Below are positions 5,674-24,805 of a DNA stretch of 31,019 nt, one piece after another. Position numbers and translations under genes: made by a program. The notes beneath the pieces were generated by a model. That model worked only from the letters and a program-made list of their open reading frames with translations, had not been told where the DNA came from and made no database searches. This stretch comes from a virus, in IMG/VR virus record IMGVR_UViG_3300023184_000369, positions 1 through 31,019 of that record. One strand, 5' to 3'. How positions within the stretch are numbered: the first letter of the stretch is position 1; the number at the start of each line of letters is the position of its first letter.

Positions 5674-5824
5674 TTTTACCGACGATGGCCGGGAGATCCT
5701 TGCCGCTGAACATTCGCAACGCTGCTGCGAGTGCACATTTCTAATCGCAGCCGGAGATCCAATCGTGATGGACAAGTGGGGCTGGGTTCACCCGCTGTGC
5801 ACCGTCGGAGATGATGCGGCGTGA
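5666..5824 (+). CDS. small zinc-finger protein
   Basis: 52 residues from GTG 5666, overlapping the previous gene by 8 bp. The metal ligands are C20-C21-x-C23 and H42-x2-C45 in the pattern C-x2-C...GDPIVMDKWGWVHPLC. This matches the small PARP-type-like zinc motif often found in actinophage proteins (CPxC...I-x2-GD.I...G-x-W-V-H-x2-C). The role is unknown; it probably binds nucleic acid or protein. The stop overlaps the next GTG by 4 bp. The longer frame from 5630 lies wholly inside the lysozyme-like gene and was not used. Confidence 0.7.
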   Translation: MANFTDDGREILAAEHSQRCCECTFLIAAGDPIVMDKWGWVHPLCTVGDDAA

Positions 5825-6006
5825 GAGACGTGGAGCGGCGTAGTCCTAGCCGGCAGGTGTCAATAAATATCCGCATGTCTGTCGAACAGCGCGAAGAACT
5901 GCGGAAGCACGCCGCGGCCCAAGGGGTCGCCGTTAGTGACCTAATTCTGCGTCTTATTGCATGGACGAAGATAGGACTCTGGGCAGACGGCGATGATGCG
6001 GCGTGA
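5821..6006 (+). CDS. ribbon-helix-helix (CopG/Arc-like) DNA-binding protein
   Basis: 61 residues from GTG 5821. After a basic N-terminus the sequence QVSINIRMSVEQREELRKHA followed by AAQGVAVSDLILRLI gives one strand and two helices, the ribbon-helix-helix fold of CopG/Arc repressors, where dimer strands enter the major groove. The start overlaps the zinc-finger gene (GTGA) and the stop overlaps the methylase GTG. It may regulate the modification genes that follow; no operator could be identified. Confidence 0.75.
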   Translation: MRDVERRSPSRQVSINIRMSVEQREELRKHAAAQGVAVSDLILRLIAWTKIGLWADGDDAA

Positions 6007-6989
6007 AGGCCACGATTCTTGTCGGAGACGTTCGCAAACGACTATCAGAGATTGTCGATGGAAGCGTGCAGACCTGCATCACTTCGCCGCCTTATTGGGG
6101 CCTGCGCGATTACGGCCATGACGATCAGATCGGCCTTGAACAAACGCCAGAGGCTTACGTTGCTGAGCTCGTTGACGTGTTCCGCGAGGTGCGCCGCGTT
6201 CTTGCCGACGACGGCACGCTATGGCTCAATCTCGGAGACTCATACGCGGCTGCGCGTGGAGGCACCTACCAGCCCGCAGAGACATTGGCAGGCGGCACGT
6301 CTGGACGCATGGACGACGGCAGCATTGTCAACCGTGGCCGAACTGAGAACTACAGCCCAAGCCGCAACGCGACCGCGATCGGACTCAAGCACAAGGACCT
6401 TGTCGGAATCCCGTGGCGGGTGGCCTTTGCGTTGCAGGCTGACGGCTGGTGGCTGCGCCAAGACATTATCTGGGCCAAACCAAACCCAATGCCGGAGTCG
6501 GTGACCGACCGCTGCACCAAGGCGCACGAATACCTGTTCTTGCTGACGAAGTCGGCTCGCTACTACTACGACGCGGCGGCTGTAAGCGAAGGTGCGATCT
6601 CATCTGGCGAGTCTCGCGGAGGTGGCAAGAAATACAGCAGCGAGGCGGGCGGAGTCGCCATCATCGGCGACAAGCACAACCTAGACAAGTACGGAACTAC
6701 ACCGGACACGCGCAACCGCCGGTCCGTCTGGACCATCGCCACCAAGCCTTTCTCCGGCGCGCACTTCGCTGTCATGCCCGAGGCGCTGGTCGAGCCTTGC
6801 ATCTTGGCCGGCTCGCGCATAGGCGACTCAGTGCTTGACCCGTTCATCGGCAGCGGCACGGTCGGAGTCGTCGCACTCAAGCATGGCCGCGACTTCATCG
6901 GGGTAGAGCTGAACCCAGAGTACGCGGCACTTGCCGAGGGGCGAATCCACGACGACGGACCGCTATTTAACGAGGTCGCAGTCGCATGA
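6003..6989 (+). CDS. DNA methyltransferase, N4-cytosine/N6-adenine class (beta type)
   Basis: 328 residues from GTG 6003. The catalytic motif TSPPYW (S28-P-P-Y31) lies near the N-terminus and the AdoMet-binding motif DPFIGSGTVG (279-288) near the C-terminus, followed by GVELNPEY. This order (motif IV before motif I) defines beta-class amino-methylases. SPPY is most typical of N4-cytosine enzymes but is also found in N6-adenine ones. The variable middle (about 80-230) holds the likely target-recognition region. No partner restriction enzyme is adjacent, so a protective orphan methylase is likely. It is flanked by coupled genes on both sides. Confidence 0.92.
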   Translation: MKATILVGDVRKRLSEIVDGSVQTCITSPPYWGLRDYGHDDQIGLEQTPEAYVAELVDVFREVRRVLADDGTLWLNLGDSYAAARGGTYQPAETLAGGTSGRMDDGSIVNRGRTENYSPSRNATAIGLKHKDLVGIPWRVAFALQADGWWLRQDIIWAKPNPMPESVTDRCTKAHEYLFLLTKSARYYYDAAAVSEGAISSGESRGGGKKYSSEAGGVAIIGDKHNLDKYGTTPDTRNRRSVWTIATKPFSGAHFAVMPEALVEPCILAGSRIGDSVLDPFIGSGTVGVVALKHGRDFIGVELNPEYAALAEGRIHDDGPLFNEVAVA

Positions 6990-7327
6990 GCCAGCACCGG
7001 AAGCATCGCGGTTACGAGAGCCAGCGCATCGTTGCCGAATATCTGCGCGCTCGTGGATGGCCGCACGCTCGCAGCGTTGGCGCCGGGGGGTCTGGCAGCG
7101 ACATCGTGGAGGTGCTCGACATTGATGTTGAAGTGAAGGCGCGGCGTGGCTTCGATCCGTTGGCAGCTATGCGTCAGCAGGAGGCCCGCAACGATGGGCG
7201 GCTACCGTTCGCGGTGCTGCGCATGGATGGCAGCGGGCCGGCGTCAATACCGGGCTGGCCTGTCGTCATTCGCTTCGATGCCTTCGTTGATTTGTTAAGG
7301 GCCGCCGGCTATGGGGGCAAGGAATGA
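6986..7327 (+). CDS. PD-(D/E)XK nuclease, Holliday-junction-resolvase/VRR-NUC-like
   Basis: 113 residues from ATG 6986, overlapping the methylase stop. The N-terminal helix (GYESQRIVAEYLRARGW) and the following G-S-D-I and V-E-V-K-A-R motifs fit the small PD-(D/E)XK core of Hjc-like resolvases and VRR-NUC proteins: a Glu in the first helix, Asp in GSDIV, and E-x-K. These enzymes cut branched DNA or mismatched structures. In phages they resolve replication or recombination junctions before packaging. It could alternatively be a restriction-like nuclease paired with the methylase. The stop overlaps the next ATG by 4 bp. Confidence 0.75.
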   Translation: MSQHRKHRGYESQRIVAEYLRARGWPHARSVGAGGSGSDIVEVLDIDVEVKARRGFDPLAAMRQQEARNDGRLPFAVLRMDGSGPASIPGWPVVIRFDAFVDLLRAAGYGGKE

Positions 7328-7905
7328 AACTTTGCATTGCGGATCCGCCATATTTAGGCCGGGCAGCCGTTTGGTACGGCGACGGTATGACAAAGGGACA
7401 ACTATCAAAGAAAGATGGAGGAACTTCAAAAACTGGGGTCAGACCGGCAGACAATAACCCCGAAGCACATCTTTGGGATGACATTGAAAAACACAGATCA
7501 TTAGTCAATGATTTGATAGATAACTTTGATGGGTGGGCGATCGCAATGGCCCACGATAATCTGCGTGACTATTTACCATTGATCCCAAATACGATTCCTA
7601 TTCGCATTGGCATTTGGACGAAACCTCAGGCAATGCCTAGCGGCGCCAGAGTAATGAACGCATATGAACCTGTTATTTTGCGGATACCGGAAGGACGGCG
7701 CGCTTCAAAGGGGCACAAGATATTTCCTAGGGATAGCGTCAGCATTTCCAGATTAAACAATGGTTTCCCCGGCGCTAAGCCGCCGGCTTGGACGCGGTGG
7801 GTTCTGGACATGCTCGGATATGATGCCCAATCTGATGAAGTCGATGACTTATTTCCCGGCTCTGGCGCCATTAGTGCAGAGTTGGCCCAATGTTCACTGA
7901 TATGA
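7324..7905 (+). CDS. DPPY-type DNA adenine methyltransferase-like protein
   Basis: 193 residues. IADPPYLGRA near the N-terminus (D7-P-P-Y10) is the catalytic motif of N6-adenine methylases, and DLFPGSGA (175-182) near the C-terminus is the AdoMet site, giving beta-class order. It is short for the class and resembles compact DPPYLGR-type methylases of actinophages, which also have H-x-W-D-D and D-G-W-A-I segments as here. The coding sequence is visibly AT-richer than the genes before it, which suggests separate acquisition. Its target base and site are unknown. A 14-bp gap leads to the next gene. Confidence 0.85.
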   Translation: MKLCIADPPYLGRAAVWYGDGMTKGQLSKKDGGTSKTGVRPADNNPEAHLWDDIEKHRSLVNDLIDNFDGWAIAMAHDNLRDYLPLIPNTIPIRIGIWTKPQAMPSGARVMNAYEPVILRIPEGRRASKGHKIFPRDSVSISRLNNGFPGAKPPAWTRWVLDMLGYDAQSDEVDDLFPGSGAISAELAQCSLI

Positions 7906-7919
7906 AAAGGGGAAGCACC

Positions 7920-8207
7920 ATGAAAGAGATCGACGACATCGCGGGCTGGCTTGACCTGCTGCGCGAAGCGACGCACCGCAAAGGTATCGAAGATGAGCAG
8001 ATCAAGATGTGCCGGGCGAAGATTGAGGAAGCGCTTGGCGAGTCGGAGATAGGCACCGTGAACGGTATGCCGGTGGTCTCGTGGCGTTGGGTGAAGTCGA
8101 ATCGCCTAGACCAGACCCTCGCCAAGCAGGTGCTGACCCCGGCGCAGCTGCAAAGTTGCATGACCGAGGTCAGCAGCCGGCGCTTCGTTTTGGTTGGCAA
8201 TGAGTGA
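7920..8207 (+). CDS. small protein resembling the C-terminal part of YqaJ-type recombination nucleases
   Basis: 95 residues from ATG 7920 (AAAAGGGGAAG upstream). The N-terminal half is helical. The second half (GTVNGMPVVSWRWVKSNRLD, then a helix, then SSRRFVL) resembles the tail of phage YqaJ-like exonucleases, where G-x-V-x-W-K...LD...RRF follows the catalytic domain. Here it stands alone, two genes before a Cas4/RecB-like nuclease, so it may be a separated accessory subunit. This is pattern-based inference. Its last 8 bp overlap the next small gene. Confidence 0.6.
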   Translation: MKEIDDIAGWLDLLREATHRKGIEDEQIKMCRAKIEEALGESEIGTVNGMPVVSWRWVKSNRLDQTLAKQVLTPAQLQSCMTEVSSRRFVLVGNE

Positions 8208-8334
8208 CCACCGGCCGGGGTGCTGGCTTCACGGCCATGACATGCGGCATGAAATAACACCGGACATGGGCCGATGCGGTTGCTTAGTCAAAAGTTTGCC
8301 AGACGAAGTGATTGACGAGGTGCCAAATGACTAG
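8200..8334 (+). CDS. 44-residue Cys/His-rich protein
   Basis: A short frame from ATG 8200, overlapping the previous gene by 8 bp and the next by 8 bp. Ligand-like residues cluster in the first part (CWLHGHDMRH, then GRCGC), so it may bind a single zinc. The C-terminus is acidic. Its position inside a tight chain of overlapping genes, with the ribosome site of the next gene (GACGAGGT) within its 3' end, supports it as real. No family is recognised. Confidence 0.55.
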   Translation: MSDHRPGCWLHGHDMRHEITPDMGRCGCLVKSLPDEVIDEVPND

Positions 8335-9064
8335 CGACCTGCTCTGTTACGACTCGCCCCTTGACAACATGCTGGACGAGATGCGCGACGTCGTGCGCTG
8401 GTATGAATCGAGCCGGCCGCGCTCACTACAGACCAGCATCGGGCCGAGCGATGCCGGCACGCCATGCGCTCGCCGGCTCGCCTATAAAATGCTGGGAGTT
8501 GAGCAGGTCAATACAGCCACCGACCCGTGGGCAGCGATCATCGGCACCAGCGTTCACGCCTGGCTAGATAAAGCCTTCAGCGATGCCAACGCGCTGCTCG
8601 CTGAGCCGCGCTGGGAAGTCTCCACCAAGATTGAGATACCGACTTACATGAGCGGCACCATCGACCTATTCGACCACGCCACCGGCACAGTGATTGACCA
8701 CAAAGTTATCGGCGCAACAGCGATGGCAAAAGTGAAGAAGGGGATCACCTCAGAGCAGTATCGAACTCAAGGCCACCTGTACGGCCTTGGCCTGATCGCT
8801 GCGGGCTTCAACGTGAAGCACATTGCCATCTGTTACTGGTCGCGCACTGGCGCGTTGAAGGATGCGCAGTACTGGACCGAGCCTTACGACGAAGCGATTG
8901 CCGAATCGGCGCTGCAACGTATCGACGCGCTGCGGATCATCACCGCGAACGGTGCCGACGCGCTCGCCGAGATACCAACCGCCGACGGCTTCTGCCTGTA
9001 CTGCCCTTATTTCTCGCCAGCAAATACCGACATCGCCAACGCTTGCCCGGGCCATGTCAAATGA
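8327..9064 (+). CDS. Cas4/RecB-like PD-(D/E)XK exonuclease with Fe-S cluster
   Basis: 245 residues from ATG 8327 (a TTG at 8312 is less likely; GAGGT precedes the ATG). Motifs in order: C47 (GTPCARR), H77 (GTSVHAWLD), D113 (SGTIDLFD), D124-H-K126 (VIDHKVIG), Q148-x3-Y152, then C223-x2-C226 and C240 near the end. The four cysteines fit the iron-sulfur cluster of Cas4/AddB-type nucleases and the others the PD-(D/E)XK active site. These enzymes trim 5' or 3' strands. In a phage it likely serves recombination-dependent replication. No cas1 or repeat array is nearby, so a CRISPR role is not supported. Confidence 0.85.
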   Translation: MTSDLLCYDSPLDNMLDEMRDVVRWYESSRPRSLQTSIGPSDAGTPCARRLAYKMLGVEQVNTATDPWAAIIGTSVHAWLDKAFSDANALLAEPRWEVSTKIEIPTYMSGTIDLFDHATGTVIDHKVIGATAMAKVKKGITSEQYRTQGHLYGLGLIAAGFNVKHIAICYWSRTGALKDAQYWTEPYDEAIAESALQRIDALRIITANGADALAEIPTADGFCLYCPYFSPANTDIANACPGHVK

Positions 9065-9756
9065 AAATTATAAATGAAAACTTATTTGACGTCTCCGAGC
9101 AGCAAAACTTTAGTCCTGTGCGAGAAATGAAAGTCGGACCAGCATCTGATAAAGACCTGAACGAGTTCTGTCGCCGTTGGCATTATATGAATCGGGCGGG
9201 GACAGCAATGAACATTTTTGGATTATGGGATTCTCATACCCTAGTGGGTTGTGTTTCATACAATCTCCCAACGATGCAAACATGCGCTTCAGTCTTTGGT
9301 CAAGAACGATGGAATTCAGTTATTCATATGAGTCGATTAGTTTGCGCCGAAAAAGCGCCGCGAAATACTGAGAGCAAACTTATCGCGGCCTCACTGAAGT
9401 TATTAAAGAAGAAAAGGCCGTACCTCAGATGTGTAATTACTTTTGCGGCGCAGTCTGAGGGTCACATTGGTTATGTTTATCAAGCAACAAACGCGCTTTA
9501 TACGGGAACTGGTGGGGAAAATTATCATTACCGAGATCAGCAAGGTAATCCGCGCAGCACAAAGCAACATACTCGCGTTTCATTGTTACGTGCGAAAGAA
9601 ATGGGTTGGGAACGGGTTCCAGACCTGCCAAAACACCGATACGTGTATCTATTAGGAAACAAGACCGAAAAGGCTGAGTCCAAAAAATTATTATTATTAC
9701 CAATTCAGCCCTATCCCAAAAACTTCGGCGCAGCCAGCGCCGAGAGCAAAAACTAA
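9061..9756 (+). CDS. Mom-like DNA-adenine hypermodification protein (GNAT fold)
   Basis: 231 residues from ATG 9061 (ATGA overlap). The family pattern is HYMNRAGTAMNIFGLWDS (41-58), LVGCVSYNLP, MSRLVCAEKAPRNTESKLIA (90-109) and GHIGYVYQATNALYTG (134-149), then KHRYVYLLG near the end. This fits phage Mu Mom and relatives, acetyltransferase-fold proteins that convert adenine to a carbamoylmethyl derivative and shield DNA from restriction enzymes. Mom-like proteins I recall usually have Asp before the GH-x-G segment; here it reads FAAQSEGHIG, with Ala at that place. The gene is markedly AT-rich compared with neighbours, suggesting horizontal gain. Confidence 0.8.
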   Translation: MKIINENLFDVSEQQNFSPVREMKVGPASDKDLNEFCRRWHYMNRAGTAMNIFGLWDSHTLVGCVSYNLPTMQTCASVFGQERWNSVIHMSRLVCAEKAPRNTESKLIAASLKLLKKKRPYLRCVITFAAQSEGHIGYVYQATNALYTGTGGENYHYRDQQGNPRSTKQHTRVSLLRAKEMGWERVPDLPKHRYVYLLGNKTEKAESKKLLLLPIQPYPKNFGAASAESKN

Positions 9757-9783
9757 CCAACTAACTAGAAAAGGAAACCTGCC

Positions 9784-10188
9784 ATGTCAGTATGGGATAT
9801 ACCAGAATTGCAAAGTACTTCAGCCTATGTGAAGTTCGAGAATCCGGGCGACAGCGTTACCGGAACGGTGATCAACATCAGCGCGCACAAGTGGGATGAT
9901 GGAAGCGTATCGCCGCAGATACTATTGCAGACCGCCGACGGCCAGCAGACCGTGACCGCTGGCCAAGTTCGGCTGAAGGCGATGCTTGCCGAACGCCGGC
10001 CAGAAGTTGGCGACACGCTCACCATCACGCACACCGAAGTAGAAAAGCGCGCAGGCGGTAAGACGCTGAAGCTCTGGACTGTCGACGTGATGCGCAGCAG
10101 CGAAGGCGCACCGATCGTTGCAGGCGAAGCACCGAACGCCGAGCAACTCGCCGCAATGAAGTTATTGGGTATGGCTGCACCGTTCTAG
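9784..10188 (+). CDS. probable OB-fold single-stranded-DNA-binding-like protein
   Basis: 134 residues from ATG 9784 with AAAAGGAAACC upstream. The middle region (GDSVTGTVINISAHKWDDGS, then SPQILLQTAD, QTVTAGQVRL, VGDTLTITHTE and KTLKLWTVDVMR) reads as five strands with a helix, as expected for an OB-fold. It lies just before the PrimPol-helicase gene, where an SSB would be useful. It also ends in a conserved-looking hydrophobic C-terminus (LLGMAAPF), reminiscent of SSB tails though not acidic. Sequence identity to classical SSB is not evident, so the assignment is inference from fold and context. Confidence 0.55.
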   Translation: MSVWDIPELQSTSAYVKFENPGDSVTGTVINISAHKWDDGSVSPQILLQTADGQQTVTAGQVRLKAMLAERRPEVGDTLTITHTEVEKRAGGKTLKLWTVDVMRSSEGAPIVAGEAPNAEQLAAMKLLGMAAPF

Positions 10189-10195
10189 TCGTATC

Positions 10196-10240
10196 CCCTG
10201 CGCTCGCTGACGGCGGCGACGGTTCGCGACCGGCGCAGGG
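10196..10240 (+). other. intergenic stem with long loop
   Basis: CCCTGCGC (10196-10203) and GCGCAGGG (10233-10240) are perfect inverted copies flanking a GC-rich loop in the 78-bp gap before the primase gene. It could be an attenuating or protein-binding structure. It has no U-run, so it is not a standard terminator. Confidence 0.4.
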
Positions 10241-10266
10241 ACTCACCGCAACTGAAGGGCGACCAC

Positions 10267-12471
10267 TTGACCATGACTAGCATCGCCGACCCTTACGCCG
10301 AAGCCTTCGCCGACTATTGGGCTGCCGGTTGGCGCGGAATCCTGCCCTTGCCATACGGCCAGAAAACGCCGCCGCCGGCTGGCTACACCGGCCATGATGG
10401 CGTAGACCCGTCATACGCCGATTGCCATGCGATGGCTGAGGAAGGCCCGGCGAACATCGCCCTGCGGTTACCTGCCGACGTGATCGGCATTGACGTAGAC
10501 GATTACAACGGCAAAGCAGGCGGCGCGACCCTTTCGGAGTTGGTCGCGCAGTTCGGGGCACTGCCGCCGACCTGGCTCAGCACCAGCCGATCTGATGGCA
10601 TTAGCGGCATCCGTATATATAAGGTGCCGCCGGGAACTGTGCTGCCGACGAAGCTCACCGGCATCGAGTTTATTCAGCACTGGCACCGGTACATCGTGGC
10701 GGCGCCCTCGCTGCACCCGGAAGGCGCCACCTACGGCTGGGTCGATGAGCGGGACGCCAGCACCGGGCAGGTGCCGATCTTCGACCAGATCCCGGCATTG
10801 CCGGCGCGATGGCTCGCTGGGCTGGTGCAACTGCCACGCGAGGCCGCGACGAAGGCTGACCTGACCGACGCCGAACTGCTGGCCACGCTCACCGGCCTAC
10901 CGAAGGGCGAACCGTGCCAGCATGTGCTACGCGCTGCCGGGCTCGCTAGTGCCGGCGGTGACCGGCACGACAGTTACCTAGCCGCGGTGCTCGCCGTGGC
11001 CGGTGCTGGGCGCAGGGGTTGCCCGGGGGCGCCGGGAGTACTGGCGCGACTTGAGGAAAGTTTCGTCTCAGAGTTGACCGACGAGATCAAAGGCAGGGCG
11101 ACGCGGGGCGAAGCGGTCGCCGAGTTCAAGCGGGGGCTGGTCGGCGCGTTGCAGATCATCGCCGGCGAATCTCAAGGGGCCGGATGTCCCGATGATGTGC
11201 TCGACTGGCTGGAGATCGCCACGGCGCTGCCAACCGATGAGGCCGGCGACCCGATAGAGCTCACGCCGTACGAACAGGCGGTGCACCGCCGATACGGTGA
11301 GATGCGGGTCCACGACGACGCCAAGGCGATGCTCGCTGCCGCGAAGGCCGGGCAGGCGCCCAGCCTTGACGGGCTAGCCCTTGGGGCGTTTCTTGACCAG
11401 CCGGACGAGAGCGAGCGGTATCGGGTCGAAGGATTATGGCCAGCCGAAGGCCGCGTGCTGCTCGCAGCTGCCGCGAAGTCTGGCAAGACAACAATGGTGG
11501 TTGGCAACCTGATCCCGGCGCTGGTGGACGGTCGGCCATTCCTTGGGCGGTTCGATGTTCACCCGGTTGCCGGGCGCGTCGTGCTGTTCAATATGGAGGT
11601 GGGGCCGCGAACCCTGCGAGGCTGGATGCGCCGGGCGGGCATCGCTGCCACCGATCGGGTGGAGGTGGTCAACCTGCGCGGGAAGTCGTCGGCGCTAGCG
11701 CTTGGCAGCGAACAGGGGCGGCGCAGGCTCGCCGGCTACCTGCGCGGGGAAGGCGCCGAGGTTGTCATCCTTGACCCTTTGGCCCCGGTGCTCGCCAGCC
11801 TAGGCCTAGATGAGAACAGCAACGCCGACGTGGCGCTGTTCTTCGCTTGGTGGTCTGAGGCGCTAGGGCTCGCCGAGGTCGCTGATGATCTCGTGGTGCA
11901 TCACACGGGCCACGCGGGGGAACGATCGCGGGGCGCCAGCCGGCTGCTCGATGAGCCTGACGCCATCTGGACATTGACCAAGATGAAGGACATTGACGGG
12001 GATGAGGGTGACCCGATCGGGATGGCCGGGCCACGATTCTTGGCAGCGTACGGCAGGGACGTTGACCTGATCGCCGAGGGGCTGGCCTTCGATTCGGCCA
12101 CCGGGGGGCTCACCTTGACGGGGAAAGGGCGGCGCGAAACTGGCGGCGGCATGGTCGAAGATCTGATCTGGGAGGCGCTGCAAGATGGCGTGCCAAGGTC
12201 GAAAAATGAGATTGTGACCCTACTCGGGAGGAAGCGGGACATCGTATTACCGGCGATAGATCGGCTGGCTGGGGCGGGTCGAATCACCGAAACTGGGGCC
12301 GGAAAATGGCCCAAATATGCAAGTGGTTCCCAGTGGTTCCCACTGGTCTCGGAACCACCCAACCAAGGTGGTTCCCGCCTTACTAGGGAACCACTTGGAA
12401 TCACCACTTTACGAGGGAAGGATTTAGACGAAGTTGGGAACCACTTGGGAGACCCTTGGGAGGAAGCATGA
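10267..12471 (+). CDS. bifunctional DNA primase-polymerase/helicase (PrimPol + RepA-like AAA ATPase)
   Basis: 734 residues. The N-terminal PrimPol (AEP) domain (about 10-200) has the metal motif IGIDVDD (D76, D78) and QHWHRYIVAAPSLHPEG. The central RecA/RepA-like ATPase has Walker A AAAKSGKTT (about 401-409) and Walker B VVILDPLAP (about 499-507), followed by VVHHTGHAGERSRGASRL, typical of AAA_25 proteins. A C-terminal winged helix (SKNEIVTLLGRKRDIVLPAI) follows. It should prime, extend and unwind at the phage origin. The start may be TTG 10267 (GAAGGG 7 nt upstream) or ATG 10273. The last 50 codons are low-complexity and hold a GGTTCC/GGAACC repeat cluster. The stop overlaps the next ATG. 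Confidence 0.88.
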   Translation: MTMTSIADPYAEAFADYWAAGWRGILPLPYGQKTPPPAGYTGHDGVDPSYADCHAMAEEGPANIALRLPADVIGIDVDDYNGKAGGATLSELVAQFGALPPTWLSTSRSDGISGIRIYKVPPGTVLPTKLTGIEFIQHWHRYIVAAPSLHPEGATYGWVDERDASTGQVPIFDQIPALPARWLAGLVQLPREAATKADLTDAELLATLTGLPKGEPCQHVLRAAGLASAGGDRHDSYLAAVLAVAGAGRRGCPGAPGVLARLEESFVSELTDEIKGRATRGEAVAEFKRGLVGALQIIAGESQGAGCPDDVLDWLEIATALPTDEAGDPIELTPYEQAVHRRYGEMRVHDDAKAMLAAAKAGQAPSLDGLALGAFLDQPDESERYRVEGLWPAEGRVLLAAAAKSGKTTMVVGNLIPALVDGRPFLGRFDVHPVAGRVVLFNMEVGPRTLRGWMRRAGIAATDRVEVVNLRGKSSALALGSEQGRRRLAGYLRGEGAEVVILDPLAPVLASLGLDENSNADVALFFAWWSEALGLAEVADDLVVHHTGHAGERSRGASRLLDEPDAIWTLTKMKDIDGDEGDPIGMAGPRFLAAYGRDVDLIAEGLAFDSATGGLTLTGKGRRETGGGMVEDLIWEALQDGVPRSKNEIVTLLGRKRDIVLPAIDRLAGAGRITETGAGKWPKYASGSQWFPLVSEPPNQGGSRLTREPLGITTLRGKDLDEVGNHLGDPWEEA
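12321..12446. repeat. iteron-like cluster of AAGTGGTTCCC repeats, candidate replication origin
   Basis: Inside the 3' end of the PrimPol-helicase gene. AGTGGTTCCC occurs twice in tandem (12322-12331, 12332-12341) and related GGTGGTTCCC at 12367-12376. Inverted copies GGGAACCACTT lie at 12386-12396 and 12436-12446, each a perfect 11-bp match to the complement of 12321-12331, plus GGAACCAC at 12351-12358. Six copies in both orientations within 126 bp is far beyond chance. Position within a replication initiator gene suggests binding sites for that protein. Confidence 0.75.
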
Positions 12472-15675: not shown

Positions 15676-16218
15676 ATGACCTGCGAAGTCTGCGGCGCTC
15701 CGTTCACCGCGCGAGCTGATGCGAGATTCTGCTCTGGTCGCTGCCGGGTGGCCGCGCACCGGCGCGAGATCTTGCCGGCAGATCTGACCAACCGCGCTCG
15801 CTGGGTTCGACATCGCGCCAAGGTTCCGCTGACCGTCGAAGGCCGCTGCGCATCTTCAACCGATCCGGCGACTTGGGCGAGTTACGCCGACGCCAAGGCC
15901 AGCGAGATCGGCGACGGCTTGGGCTTCGTGTTCAATGGTGACGGCATCGCCGGCATTGACCTTGACCATTGCCTAGCCGATGGCGTGCTGGATCCTTGGG
16001 CGCAGCAGATCCTTGACCGCTGCCCTGCCACTTATGTTGAGATCTCGCCATCAGGTACCGGCCTGCACATCTTCGGCCGCGCAATAGTTGGCGCTGGCCG
16101 GCGCCAAGATGGTGTCGAAGTCTACGATCGCGGCCGTTATTTCACTGTCACTGGCCGGCCGTTCGGCAAGCCGACGCGCAAGTTGGCCGACATCACCGGC
16201 CTTATCGCTTCGCTGTAA
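15676..16218 (+). CDS. stand-alone PrimPol-type (NrS-1 polymerase N-domain-like) protein with zinc finger
   Basis: 180 residues. A zinc knuckle opens the protein (C3-x2-C6...C19-x3-C23). The rest matches the catalytic core of NrS-1-type primase-polymerases: GFVFNGDGIAGIDLDHC (D95, D97), EISPSGTGLHIFG (S126/H131) and EVYDRGRYFTVTG (148-160). These are the metal-binding and nucleotide-binding motifs of the AEP superfamily, but the helicase that normally follows is absent. It could be a dedicated primase or a terminase-associated factor. It is a second AEP-like protein in this phage besides that at 10267. The mRNA is predicted leaderless. Confidence 0.78.
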   Translation: MTCEVCGAPFTARADARFCSGRCRVAAHRREILPADLTNRARWVRHRAKVPLTVEGRCASSTDPATWASYADAKASEIGDGLGFVFNGDGIAGIDLDHCLADGVLDPWAQQILDRCPATYVEISPSGTGLHIFGRAIVGAGRRQDGVEVYDRGRYFTVTGRPFGKPTRKLADITGLIASL

Positions 16219-22311: not shown

Positions 22312-23526
22312 ATGTCGAAACCTGCAAAGCGACCCGGCAAACCTGCGCGCCGTGTCGTCAATCAACGTGCGATTCTTTGGGCGAGCAATTCACCTTGGGC
22401 GCCGACCGGATACGGAACGCAGACCGCGCAAGTCACTAAGCGGCTGAAGGATGATCGGCACCGCGTAGCAGTTGCCAGCAATTACGGGCTTGAGGCCTTC
22501 AGTTTCGAGTGGAACGGGATCAAGCAATTTCCTCGCGGCTTCGACATGTATTCCAATGACGTAGTGCCAGCGCACATGGCAGCGTGGGAGCATGAAAACC
22601 CCGGCTTCGATCCGCTGTTGATGACCCTTTATGACGTGTGGATTTACAAGGGCAAGCAGTGGGATCTGCTGCCGAGCATCGCGTCTTGGGTTCCGATAGA
22701 TCACATGCCCGCGCCGCCGATTGTGATGAAGTTCCTCAGCAAGCCGAATGTCACGCCAATCGCGATGAGCCAATTCGGCAAGGCGATGATCGAGCGCGAA
22801 GGCGTCGAATGTTTGTACGTTCCGCACGCCATCGAAAAAGTCTTTATGCCAACCGCATCGGTGCCACTGCCGAAGGGCGGCGCGCTAACTGGTCGCGGAT
22901 TCATGGAAGTCGGCGAGGATAAGTTTGTCGTCGGAATGAACGCCGCGAACAAAGGCAAGGTGCCGAACCGCAAGGCGTTCCCTGAGGCGTTCCTTGCCTT
23001 CGCGCTATTCGCGAAAAAGCACGACGATGCGGTGCTTTATATCCATACCGAGGACCGTGGCGGCATGGGCGGAATCAACTTGCGGGAACTAGCCGAAGCC
23101 TGCGGCATACCTGATCACCAGATCACGTTCGTTGACCAGTACGCGTACCGCATCGGGATTCCGCAGGAGATGCTCGCGGCAATCTATACCGCGATTGATG
23201 TCTTGCTAATGCCGAGCATGTCGGAAGGCTTCGGCATCCCGATCATCGAAGCGCAGGCCTGCGGCACTCCGGTTATCGTCACCGATTCAACCGCGATGCC
23301 AGAGTTGCTGGGCGATGGCTGGCTGGTCTCTGGGCAGCCGTGGTGGGATTCTTTGCAGAACGCCTGGATGGTCGCGCCCTCGGTGCCGTCGATTGTTGAG
23401 GCGTTGGAAGATTCGTACCAACGGGGCCGGCAGCGCTCGCAGGTGGCCATTGACTTCACGGCGCAATATGACGCGGATTATGTTTTCGAGACGTACTGGC
23501 GCCCGGCGATTGCGGCCATACCGTGA
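22312..23526 (+). CDS. GT4-family glycosyltransferase (GT-B fold)
   Basis: 404 residues from ATG 22312 (AAAGGACAAGA upstream). An N-terminal Rossmann half begins at RAILWASNSPWAPTGYGTQT (donor/acceptor loop). The C-terminal half carries LLMPSMSEGFGIPIIEAQAC and GTPVIVTDSTAMPEL (about 298-335), the E-x7-E signature that binds the nucleotide sugar in GT4 enzymes. It transfers sugar from an activated donor with retained configuration. Its place right after the capsid gene suggests it glycosylates virion proteins or attached glycans. The stop overlaps the next GTG by 4 bp. Confidence 0.9.
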   Translation: MSKPAKRPGKPARRVVNQRAILWASNSPWAPTGYGTQTAQVTKRLKDDRHRVAVASNYGLEAFSFEWNGIKQFPRGFDMYSNDVVPAHMAAWEHENPGFDPLLMTLYDVWIYKGKQWDLLPSIASWVPIDHMPAPPIVMKFLSKPNVTPIAMSQFGKAMIEREGVECLYVPHAIEKVFMPTASVPLPKGGALTGRGFMEVGEDKFVVGMNAANKGKVPNRKAFPEAFLAFALFAKKHDDAVLYIHTEDRGGMGGINLRELAEACGIPDHQITFVDQYAYRIGIPQEMLAAIYTAIDVLLMPSMSEGFGIPIIEAQACGTPVIVTDSTAMPELLGDGWLVSGQPWWDSLQNAWMVAPSVPSIVEALEDSYQRGRQRSQVAIDFTAQYDADYVFETYWRPAIAAIP

Positions 23527-24149
23527 TTCCGGTGATGATTGTGCCGATACTTGCCGGGCCGAAGATCCTGTACGCGATGCTCGACTCTATCGACTACCCG
23601 GTGGCGAAACTGATCATTATTGACAACGGGGATTGCCTGAACACTTCGACCGGCTGGCCTGTCGAGCATGTTCAATCGACGAAGGTGATCAAGATGCCGG
23701 CCAACTTAGGCGTTGCCGGTTCATGGAATCTGGGAATCAAGGCGGCACCCTTCGCGCCTTGGTGGCTGATCGTGAACTTCGATATCACTTGGCCCCCGGG
23801 GTCGCTGAAGATGTTTGCCGAGCAGGGCAGCGCCGACGAGATCCTGCTGAGCCGATGCCCTCAGCCGTGGTCGGCTTTCACCATCGGCGAGAACGTGGTG
23901 CGCCGTGTCGGCCTGTTCGATGAAGGATTCCACCCGGCCTATTTTGAGGACAACGATTACGCACGCCGCTGCGCTGATGAGATCATCAGGCCGGCGCCGA
24001 TACCAGTACGACATGAAAACTCCAGCACCCTAGCTGCTGCCGATTACGGCGAAAAGAACAACCGCACCTACCTGTCGAACTTGGATTATTTCCAAGGCGG
24101 CGGGGGCGGCTGGAGCCTTGACCGAAGGCGGGCCAACTCGTGGGATTGA
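23523..24149 (+). CDS. GT2-like glycosyltransferase (GT-A fold)
   Basis: 208 residues from GTG 23523. The N-terminal nucleotide-binding region reads IPVMIVPIL...KLIIIDNGDC, then KMPANLGVAGSWNLGIKAA, a NFDI in place of the usual DxD, and later GLFDEGFHPAYFEDNDYARR, the catalytic ED motif of GT2 transferases. It is shorter than full GT2 enzymes and has no transmembrane part, as expected for soluble phage enzymes. It probably adds a sugar in the same pathway as the neighbouring GT4. Its end overlaps the next gene by 10 bp. Confidence 0.85.
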   Translation: MIPVMIVPILAGPKILYAMLDSIDYPVAKLIIIDNGDCLNTSTGWPVEHVQSTKVIKMPANLGVAGSWNLGIKAAPFAPWWLIVNFDITWPPGSLKMFAEQGSADEILLSRCPQPWSAFTIGENVVRRVGLFDEGFHPAYFEDNDYARRCADEIIRPAPIPVRHENSSTLAAADYGEKNNRTYLSNLDYFQGGGGGWSLDRRRANSWD

Positions 24150-24805
24150 CTTTGCCGAAAGACGTGACCGGCTTCTGCGATTCGCGCAAGGGTGAGACCG
24201 CTTGGGTGTTAGGTTCAGGTGCAAGTCTTAACCATGTGCCGCGCTGGTTCTGGTCTGATCGGTTGGTGGTCGCCACCAACTTTGTCGGACTTCGGCTAGA
24301 CATTCCAGACTTCTACGCTGTCACGCATTACCACTGCGATGCGGCAATAATCGCGGCGCAGCGGCCCGATGTCCCGGTGATCGCACCGATCATAGATCAG
24401 GGTGGTATCGCCGCGATACCAGTGCCACCGCAGGCTGAGAACATTTACTACATGAAAACAGGGACGCAAGCCTACGCGCAGTTCGATTGCGCAGAGTTGT
24501 GGCCGAGCGAACCTGACACGCTCGTGGTCGGCCCGACATCGCTCCACATGACAATGCACTTTGCCGCCTACCTTGGTGCACGGCATATCATTCTTGCCGG
24601 TGCTGACTGTGGGACGTTAGATGACGCGAGCAACTTTGATGGGTATGCGCCCGGTGATAATCCGATGGGTGTTTGGGAGCGTTCACTTCGCGATGTCGCC
24701 AACCAGTTCCGAAGTCAAGGCGTGTCGGTGATGTCGCTGAATCCGTTTGCTAATTTTAACCTTGAGGGCCACCAGTTTCGTTCCAGTTCTGTCAGCATAA
24801 ATTAG
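24140..24805 (+). CDS. DUF115/MAF-like protein (putative sugar transferase)
   Basis: 221 residues from GTG 24140 (a few nearby alternative starts). TAWVLGSGASLNHVPRWFWS and LVVATNFVGL near the N-terminus, VVGPTSLHMTMHFAAYLGAR and HIILAGADCG later, give the Rossmann-like pattern of the DUF115/MptE-like and motility-associated-factor (MAF) family, some members of which glycosylate flagellin. In this cassette it may transfer an acidic or nonulosonic sugar or modify a glycan precursor. Other DUF115 members have different roles, so this is inference. The next gene has its own AGGAG after the stop. Confidence 0.7.
   Translation: MGLTLPKDVTGFCDSRKGETAWVLGSGASLNHVPRWFWSDRLVVATNFVGLRLDIPDFYAVTHYHCDAAIIAAQRPDVPVIAPIIDQGGIAAIPVPPQAENIYYMKTGTQAYAQFDCAELWPSEPDTLVVGPTSLHMTMHFAAYLGARHIILAGADCGTLDDASNFDGYAPGDNPMGVWERSLRDVANQFRSQGVSVMSLNPFANFNLEGHQFRSSSVSIN

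Follow-up and report, generated by a model that had tools for sequence, protein, structure and literature searches.

Does a cluster of DNA modification and nuclease genes in an uncultured phage form one dedicated system, or a set of parts with separate histories? The question is raised by IMG/VR record IMGVR_UViG_3300023184_000369, a linear stretch of 31,019 bases analysed here in full (the window), in which three predicted base-modifying enzymes are encoded among PD-(D/E)XK nucleases and other recombination proteins (Table 1). Two are beta-class methylases, M1 with an SPPY motif and DPPY with a DPPY motif; the third is related to Mom, the DNA-modification enzyme of phage Mu. A preliminary description of the locus proposed a possible layered anti-restriction system whose nucleases might serve recombination or destroy unmodified DNA. 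Our analysis indicates that the locus is probably the recombination operon of a small actinobacteriophage-like phage, loaded with modification genes as independent cargo. Overall, it comprises mostly ordinary phage biology together with one overlooked family of minimal methylases, that of DPPY, which is the part worth following.

Related blocks were gathered from other viral contigs with the Cas4-like protein (CAS4) as bait, and two near-identical pairs of these loci settle the exchange of the DPPY gene and mom. Loci L002 and L102 are 94–96% identical on both flanks of the DPPY site. The DPPY gene of L002 lies at 8001–8582 and the identity to L102 breaks at 7992 and 8596; at this site L102 carries a gene resembling 3'-phosphoadenosine-5'-phosphosulfate (PAPS) reductase (6959–7858; phrog_424, 1.2e-60). 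Similarly, L093 and L094 are 93–94% identical on both flanks of the mom site; mom occupies 8228–8914 in L094, the identity breaks at 8218 and 8914, and L093 has at the same place a gene for 149 residues with a guanine-plus-cytosine (GC) content of 36% and endonuclease-like PHROG matches. No break lies more than about 15 nt from a gene end, apart from the site where the PAPS-reductase-like open reading frame (ORF) starts slightly further upstream. Such gene-for-gene exchange between 94%-identical genomes is direct evidence of trading. The PAPS-reductase-like gene of L102 may be another nucleic-acid modification gene.

The genes around the traded sites, NUC, YQ, CAS4, P9784 and PRIM, constitute a conserved replication and recombination block. 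YQ-CAS4-P9784 is present in L002, L003, L008, L020, L090, L093–L098 and L102, with P9784 adjoining CAS4. L090 has NUC-YQ-CAS4-P9784-PRIM without an intervening methylase or Mom, and L097 and L102 retain YQ-CAS4-P9784-PRIM with none of the three modification enzymes nearby. As for the modification genes, Mom precedes the resolvase and DPPY precedes CAS4 in L003, DPPY precedes the resolvase in L020, and Mom follows P9784 in L094. Sequence similarity does not track the backbone: the window and L002 share 74% protein identity in DPPY, 41% in CAS4 and 55% in P9784, and the corresponding values for L002 and L008 are 51%, 65% and 73%. The conserved part, the recombination genes, can thus be told apart from the traded part, the modification genes, in an uncultured phage group. 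The source phage is small and its host is probably an actinobacterium; the window terminase (TerL) is 50% identical to its counterpart in Pontimonas phage phiPsal1, a 31-kb actinobacteriophage. phiPsal1 is of similar genome size and also has an Hjc-like resolvase and an N6 methylase, but no DPPY gene was found in it and its recombination genes differ (lambda exonuclease).

Base composition separates the same two genes. The Mom gene has the lowest GC content of the 33 genes (43.7%) and the DPPY gene the second lowest (48.6%), the others averaging 58.9 ± 3.4%, and outside 7324–9756 no 696-nt stretch has a GC content as low as that of Mom. The preliminary description had called both genes AT-richer than the rest, and they are. 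Intrinsic AT-richness as a rule was considered and rejected: the GC difference between DPPY gene and flank averages −0.006 over 76 loci, and Mom in L003 and L088 lies within 2% of its flank. Low GC is not a family property and points to recent import into the window genome. The composition, the empty sites, the gene swaps and the discordant similarity support separate acquisition of the DPPY gene and mom, as had been suggested. No strong homologue of M1 was found in the core relatives searched, from which we infer that M1 is cargo as well.

The idea of a layered system acting as a unit is not supported. DPPY and Mom occur together in one of 50 DPPY-bearing records, the one holding L003 (a 15.2-kb contig). 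Among 25 records checked, mostly Mom- or backbone-bearing, DPPY is present in the window and three others (the records of L003, L092 and L101). Across the records checked only the window and the record of L003 contain both; many records are fragments, and these counts are therefore lower bounds. The combination is rare and is not a conserved layered system. A fixed partner of DPPY was also sought by clustering the neighbours of 76 DPPY genes; they turned out to be general phage genes, the commonest present at 18 of the 76 loci. In Mu and a dozen database phages from different groups, the neighbours of Mom vary and include polymerase, ParB-like, RNA ligase, methylase, VRR-nuclease and terminase genes; a nuclease is not a constant neighbour.

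All the genes named in the preliminary description are open and intact and were correctly placed, and the count of three different base-modifying enzymes stands, M1 and Mom being assigned by profiles and DPPY by fold and motifs. The expected placement by profile searches was obtained for M1 and Mom; DPPY gave no significant family match. M1 matches PF01555 (N6_N4_Mtase) with E 1.7e-49 and 169 bits (cut-off 26.7), phrog_67 with 1.3e-74 and PADLOC MTase_II with 1.5e-107; among cultured phages, the methylases closest to it reach 58% identity. Its motif IV, TSPPY, precedes the motif-I region. SPPY is typical of N4-cytosine methylases and DPPY of adenine-N6 methylases, and the SPPY motif suggests N4-cytosine as the M1 target.

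The gene at 9061 encodes, as judged from its sequence, a true Mom homologue. It matches PF25680 with E 2.1e-34 and 119.4 bits (cut-off 27.1) over profile positions 2–202 of 202, phrog_1384 (Mom-like) with 4.4e-43 and the Mu Mom structure (PDB 8bv8) with 1.8e-8. Residues H41, Y42, G54, G63, R92, P100, N102, A129, G137, Y140, A142 and Y194 are invariant in 10 Mom proteins including that of Mu, to which the alignment extends over residues 41–220 with the family positions HY, PRN, GxxYQAxN and RY kept. When peptide patterns were taken from the window Mom alone, no relatives in viruses came up; an alignment that included L003 recovered three. A Mom-family enzyme would be expected to convert adenine to N6-carbamoylmethyladenine in phage DNA. 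The settings differ: Mu mom adjoins an invertase gene near the genome end, whereas the window gene sits inside a recombination operon, and no com gene is apparent in the window. A methylase-Mom pairing is also found in Polaribacter phage P12002L, but the methylase there is of the D12/Dam type (PF02086) and not a DPPY family member.

The three enzymes, expressed with the replication block, would each attach a different group to the DNA as it replicates. M1 would methylate a specific site, probably at cytosine, during infection. DPPY, which is almost too small to hold a target-recognition domain, would therefore methylate adenine at N6 in nearly or entirely any sequence context, and Mom would put a bulkier group on adenine N6. 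One or another of these groups would block most host endonucleases and so widen restriction evasion, and the nucleases would process recombination and replication intermediates rather than act as a restriction arm. An anti-restriction role of the modification genes is plausible.

Several points weigh against this picture. DNA modification is predicted here from the genes, DPPY and Mom would be in competition for a single position on adenine, and the comparison of near-identical pairs covers only the DPPY gene and mom. The apparent lack of a recognition domain in DPPY is read from protein size and a model, whose template modelling (TM) scores to known methylases are moderate (0.5–0.6). Moreover, the genome bears no sign of relief from type II restriction. 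Palindromic 6-mers have an observed/expected ratio of 0.64 in the window and AGCT one of 0.31, a strong restriction-avoidance signature, but Mom-less phiPsal1 (0.66) and L090 (0.62) give similar 6-mer values. Palindrome avoidance was discarded as an indicator of protection, since Mom-bearing and Mom-less phages do not differ in it. Since the depletion is about as strong as in Mom-less relatives, the lineage has apparently long been under restriction; that relief is missing so far would fit a recent acquisition of the modification genes.

Methylation by M1 and DPPY could alternatively serve phage replication, packaging or gene timing and not protection. The genes do lie within the replication block, and there is precedent in the many orphan phage methylases that may regulate the replication cycle and in P1, which requires Dam methylation at its pac sites (PMC12707154). 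We nevertheless consider a regulatory role unlikely: unrelated genes replace both DPPY and Mom in near-identical phages, so that both are dispensable there, and the Mom of Mu is known for protection.

The DPPY protein has no match in Pfam, NCBIfam or PADLOC and a marginal one in PHROG (E 0.03). PF01555 finds nothing in the window protein and weak similarity in 9 of 16 relatives (best E 0.018); because this is below the cut-off, DPPY is not counted as a PF01555 member and is called methylase-like on the strength of its fold and motifs. A single-sequence search yielded 14 relatives and an alignment search at least 154 in IMG/VR; elsewhere, relatives were found in 9 phage records and 69 bacterial contigs, mostly actinobacterial. 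Distant members in Nonomuraea, Actinoplanes and Actinomadura (L152–L169) have genes resembling those for primase, FtsK and integrase in their vicinity, which suggests that these loci are actinobacterial integrative elements. ADPPY and FxG are invariant across a 59-row family alignment (A4). The motif order is permuted, with DPPY (motif IV) first and FxGxG (motif I) near the C-terminus; among 76 distinct members, of median length 189 residues, DPPY is kept in 74 and the motif-I pattern in 75.

The family profile gave only chance-level matches in PDB, and a fold search was needed. An AlphaFold2 model of the window protein (predicted local distance difference test, pLDDT, 84; predicted TM score, pTM, 0.82) matched CcrM (3e-6), M.BceJIV (6e-5) and MboIIA (1e-4) in Foldseek, within a range extending to 5e-4, with further matches to RsrI, MTA1 and the RNA methylase METTL3. 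The modelled fold corresponds to a beta-class methylase core. CcrM, M.BceJIV, MboIIA and RsrI share the permuted motif order and the fold, but their chains have about 230–370 residues compared with about 190 in the DPPY family. The sole insert-like segment of the 193-residue window protein (24–39) has pLDDT below 50; judged by size and model, the family apparently lacks a target-recognition domain.

It is quite improbable that DPPY is a degenerate or non-DNA methylase, inactive or acting on RNA or a small molecule. The weak PF01555 homology, the METTL3 match and the lack of an apparent recognition domain would suit such a protein, but the catalytic motifs are near-universal in the family, the top fold matches are DNA adenine methylases and the genes sit in phage DNA-metabolism blocks. 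Non-specific prophage adenine methylases of the Hin1523/Hia5 type, reportedly described by Drozdz and colleagues in 2012, are thought broadly protective and in Mu-like prophages occupy the position of mom. DPPY resembles these enzymes and M.EcoGII in being a predicted phage adenine methylase, and it would likewise be non-specific. A passage in PMC5537653 cites the Hin1523/Hia5 type, and M.EcoGII is likewise a prophage non-specific adenine methylase (PMC12707154). Tentatively, the DPPY family may represent widespread, overlooked minimal sequence-independent adenine methylases, perhaps single-strand-preferring, that travel as movable cargo of actinobacteriophages and integrative elements and form a general layer of anti-restriction, either together with Mom or in its place. 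The methylase idea is not wholly new, as gp42 of Microbacterium phage Wyvern, a cultured relative, already carries the annotation 'DNA methyltransferase'; the libraries searched do not include the family. A very small adenine-methylase-like family that these libraries do not recognise is common in actinobacterial phages and mobile elements. If active and non-specific, it would account for resistance to a broad range of restriction enzymes and could provide methylation reagents.

The nucleases belong to the backbone. NUC matches Holliday-junction resolvases (phrog_244, 1.5e-10) and has invariant D39, E49-V-K51 and Q64; YQ matches phrog_1956 (4.1e-20) and the C-terminus of RecE-like phrog_434 (9.5e-5); CAS4 matches the exonuclease phrog_1674 (1.7e-66) and PF12705 (6.9e-6). 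In CAS4, the PD-(D/E)XK residues D118 and D129-H-K131 and the cysteines C52, C228, C231 and C245 are invariant in four relatives, which makes the earlier label of a Cas4-like Fe-S nuclease a fair one. A coupling of endonuclease and methylase across relatives, as in a restriction-modification system, was not observed, and the nucleases occur without methylases. The proposal that they destroy unmodified DNA is not supported: they are recombination operon genes, present with none of the three enzymes nearby in L090, L097 and L102. A dedicated system, with the Cas4-like or the Hjc-like nuclease degrading DNA of the host or of competitors that lacks the modification, is very improbable. In its favour, Mom domains of jumbo phages are reported in fusion with domains of restriction-endonuclease fold, and these proteins are predicted to attack unmodified DNA (PMC7824862); Mom adjoins a nuclease gene in the window, in L003, where it overlaps the Hjc-like gene, and in Roseobacter phage CRP-902, where the neighbour encodes a VRR-nuclease; and one open frame of L071 (8001–9767) joins a DPPY relative to a PD-(D/E)XK-like domain. 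Against it, the same nucleases stand in blocks without any modification gene, modification genes exist without these nucleases, most cultured phages examined have no PD-(D/E)XK nuclease beside Mom, and the matched families are recombination proteins. The PD-(D/E)XK-like domain of L071 is itself a weak PF12705 match below the cut-off.

Table 1. Genes of the modification and recombination region, in window coordinates.
Feature	Position	Strand	Description	Evidence
RHH-like gene	5821..6006	+	61 residues, possible regulator	NikA-like and RHH_10 matches below curated cut-offs
M1	6003..6989	+	Beta-class DNA methylase, SPPY motif IV	PF01555, phrog_67, PADLOC MTase_II
NUC	6986..7327	+	Small PD-(D/E)XK Holliday-junction resolvase (Hjc/RusA-like), backbone	phrog_244, conserved residues
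DPPY	7324..7905	+	Minimal beta-class methylase, predicted adenine-N6, cargo	Motifs, AlphaFold2 model, Foldseek
YQ	7920..8207	+	Resembles the C-terminal end of YqaJ/RecE exonucleases, backbone	phrog_1956, phrog_434
Small ORF	8191..8334	+	46–47 residues, Cys/His-rich	No family match
CAS4	8312..9064	+	Cas4-like PD-(D/E)XK exonuclease, four conserved Cys, backbone	phrog_1674, PF12705, residues
MOM	9061..9756	+	Mu Mom-family GNAT DNA-modification enzyme, cargo	PF25680, phrog_1384, PDB 8bv8
P9784	9784..10188	+	134 residues, backbone gene after CAS4	phrog_1911; 54–59% identity in relatives
PRIM	10267..12471	+	Primase-polymerase/helicase, closes the replication-recombination block	phrog_11515 8e-55

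Every gene from 5821 to 12471 runs rightward. The linkage by overlaps of a few bp, pointed out earlier, is seen as four 4-nt stop/start overlaps (6003–6006, 6986–6989, 7324–7327 and 9061–9064); YQ starts at ATG 7920, 15 nt past the DPPY stop, and CAS4 at ATG 8328 or TTG 8312. A search for a promoter of the modification genes returned two weak sites, not above the count in shuffled sequence. Family searches with the small ORF at 8191..8334 gave no match.

The gene at 5821 had been described as a ribbon-helix-helix (RHH) gene preceding the island. Its sequence is RHH-like, but the scores (NikA-like, 1.9e-5; RHH_10, 1e-3) stay under the curated cut-offs. No homologues were found in the related loci compared, and the gene is possibly, but not necessarily, part of the modification set. 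It is bounded by an exact 15-nt direct repeat, GATGATGCGGCGTGA (repeat family D3), at 5810–5824 and 5992–6006; the copies end the preceding ORF and the RHH gene, each providing a stop/start overlap. The pair looks like the trace left by an event in which the RHH gene was inserted or duplicated.

Elsewhere in the window, a second, short gene resembling the N-terminal part of primase-polymerases lies apart from PRIM at 15676–16218 (PF09250, weak; phrog_8643, 3.9e-60). The major capsid gene is directly followed by a pair of glycosyltransferase genes and one MptE-like gene (22312–24805); glycosyltransferase genes lie behind the capsid gene in phiPsal1 as well, and capsid glycosylation is possible in the window phage.

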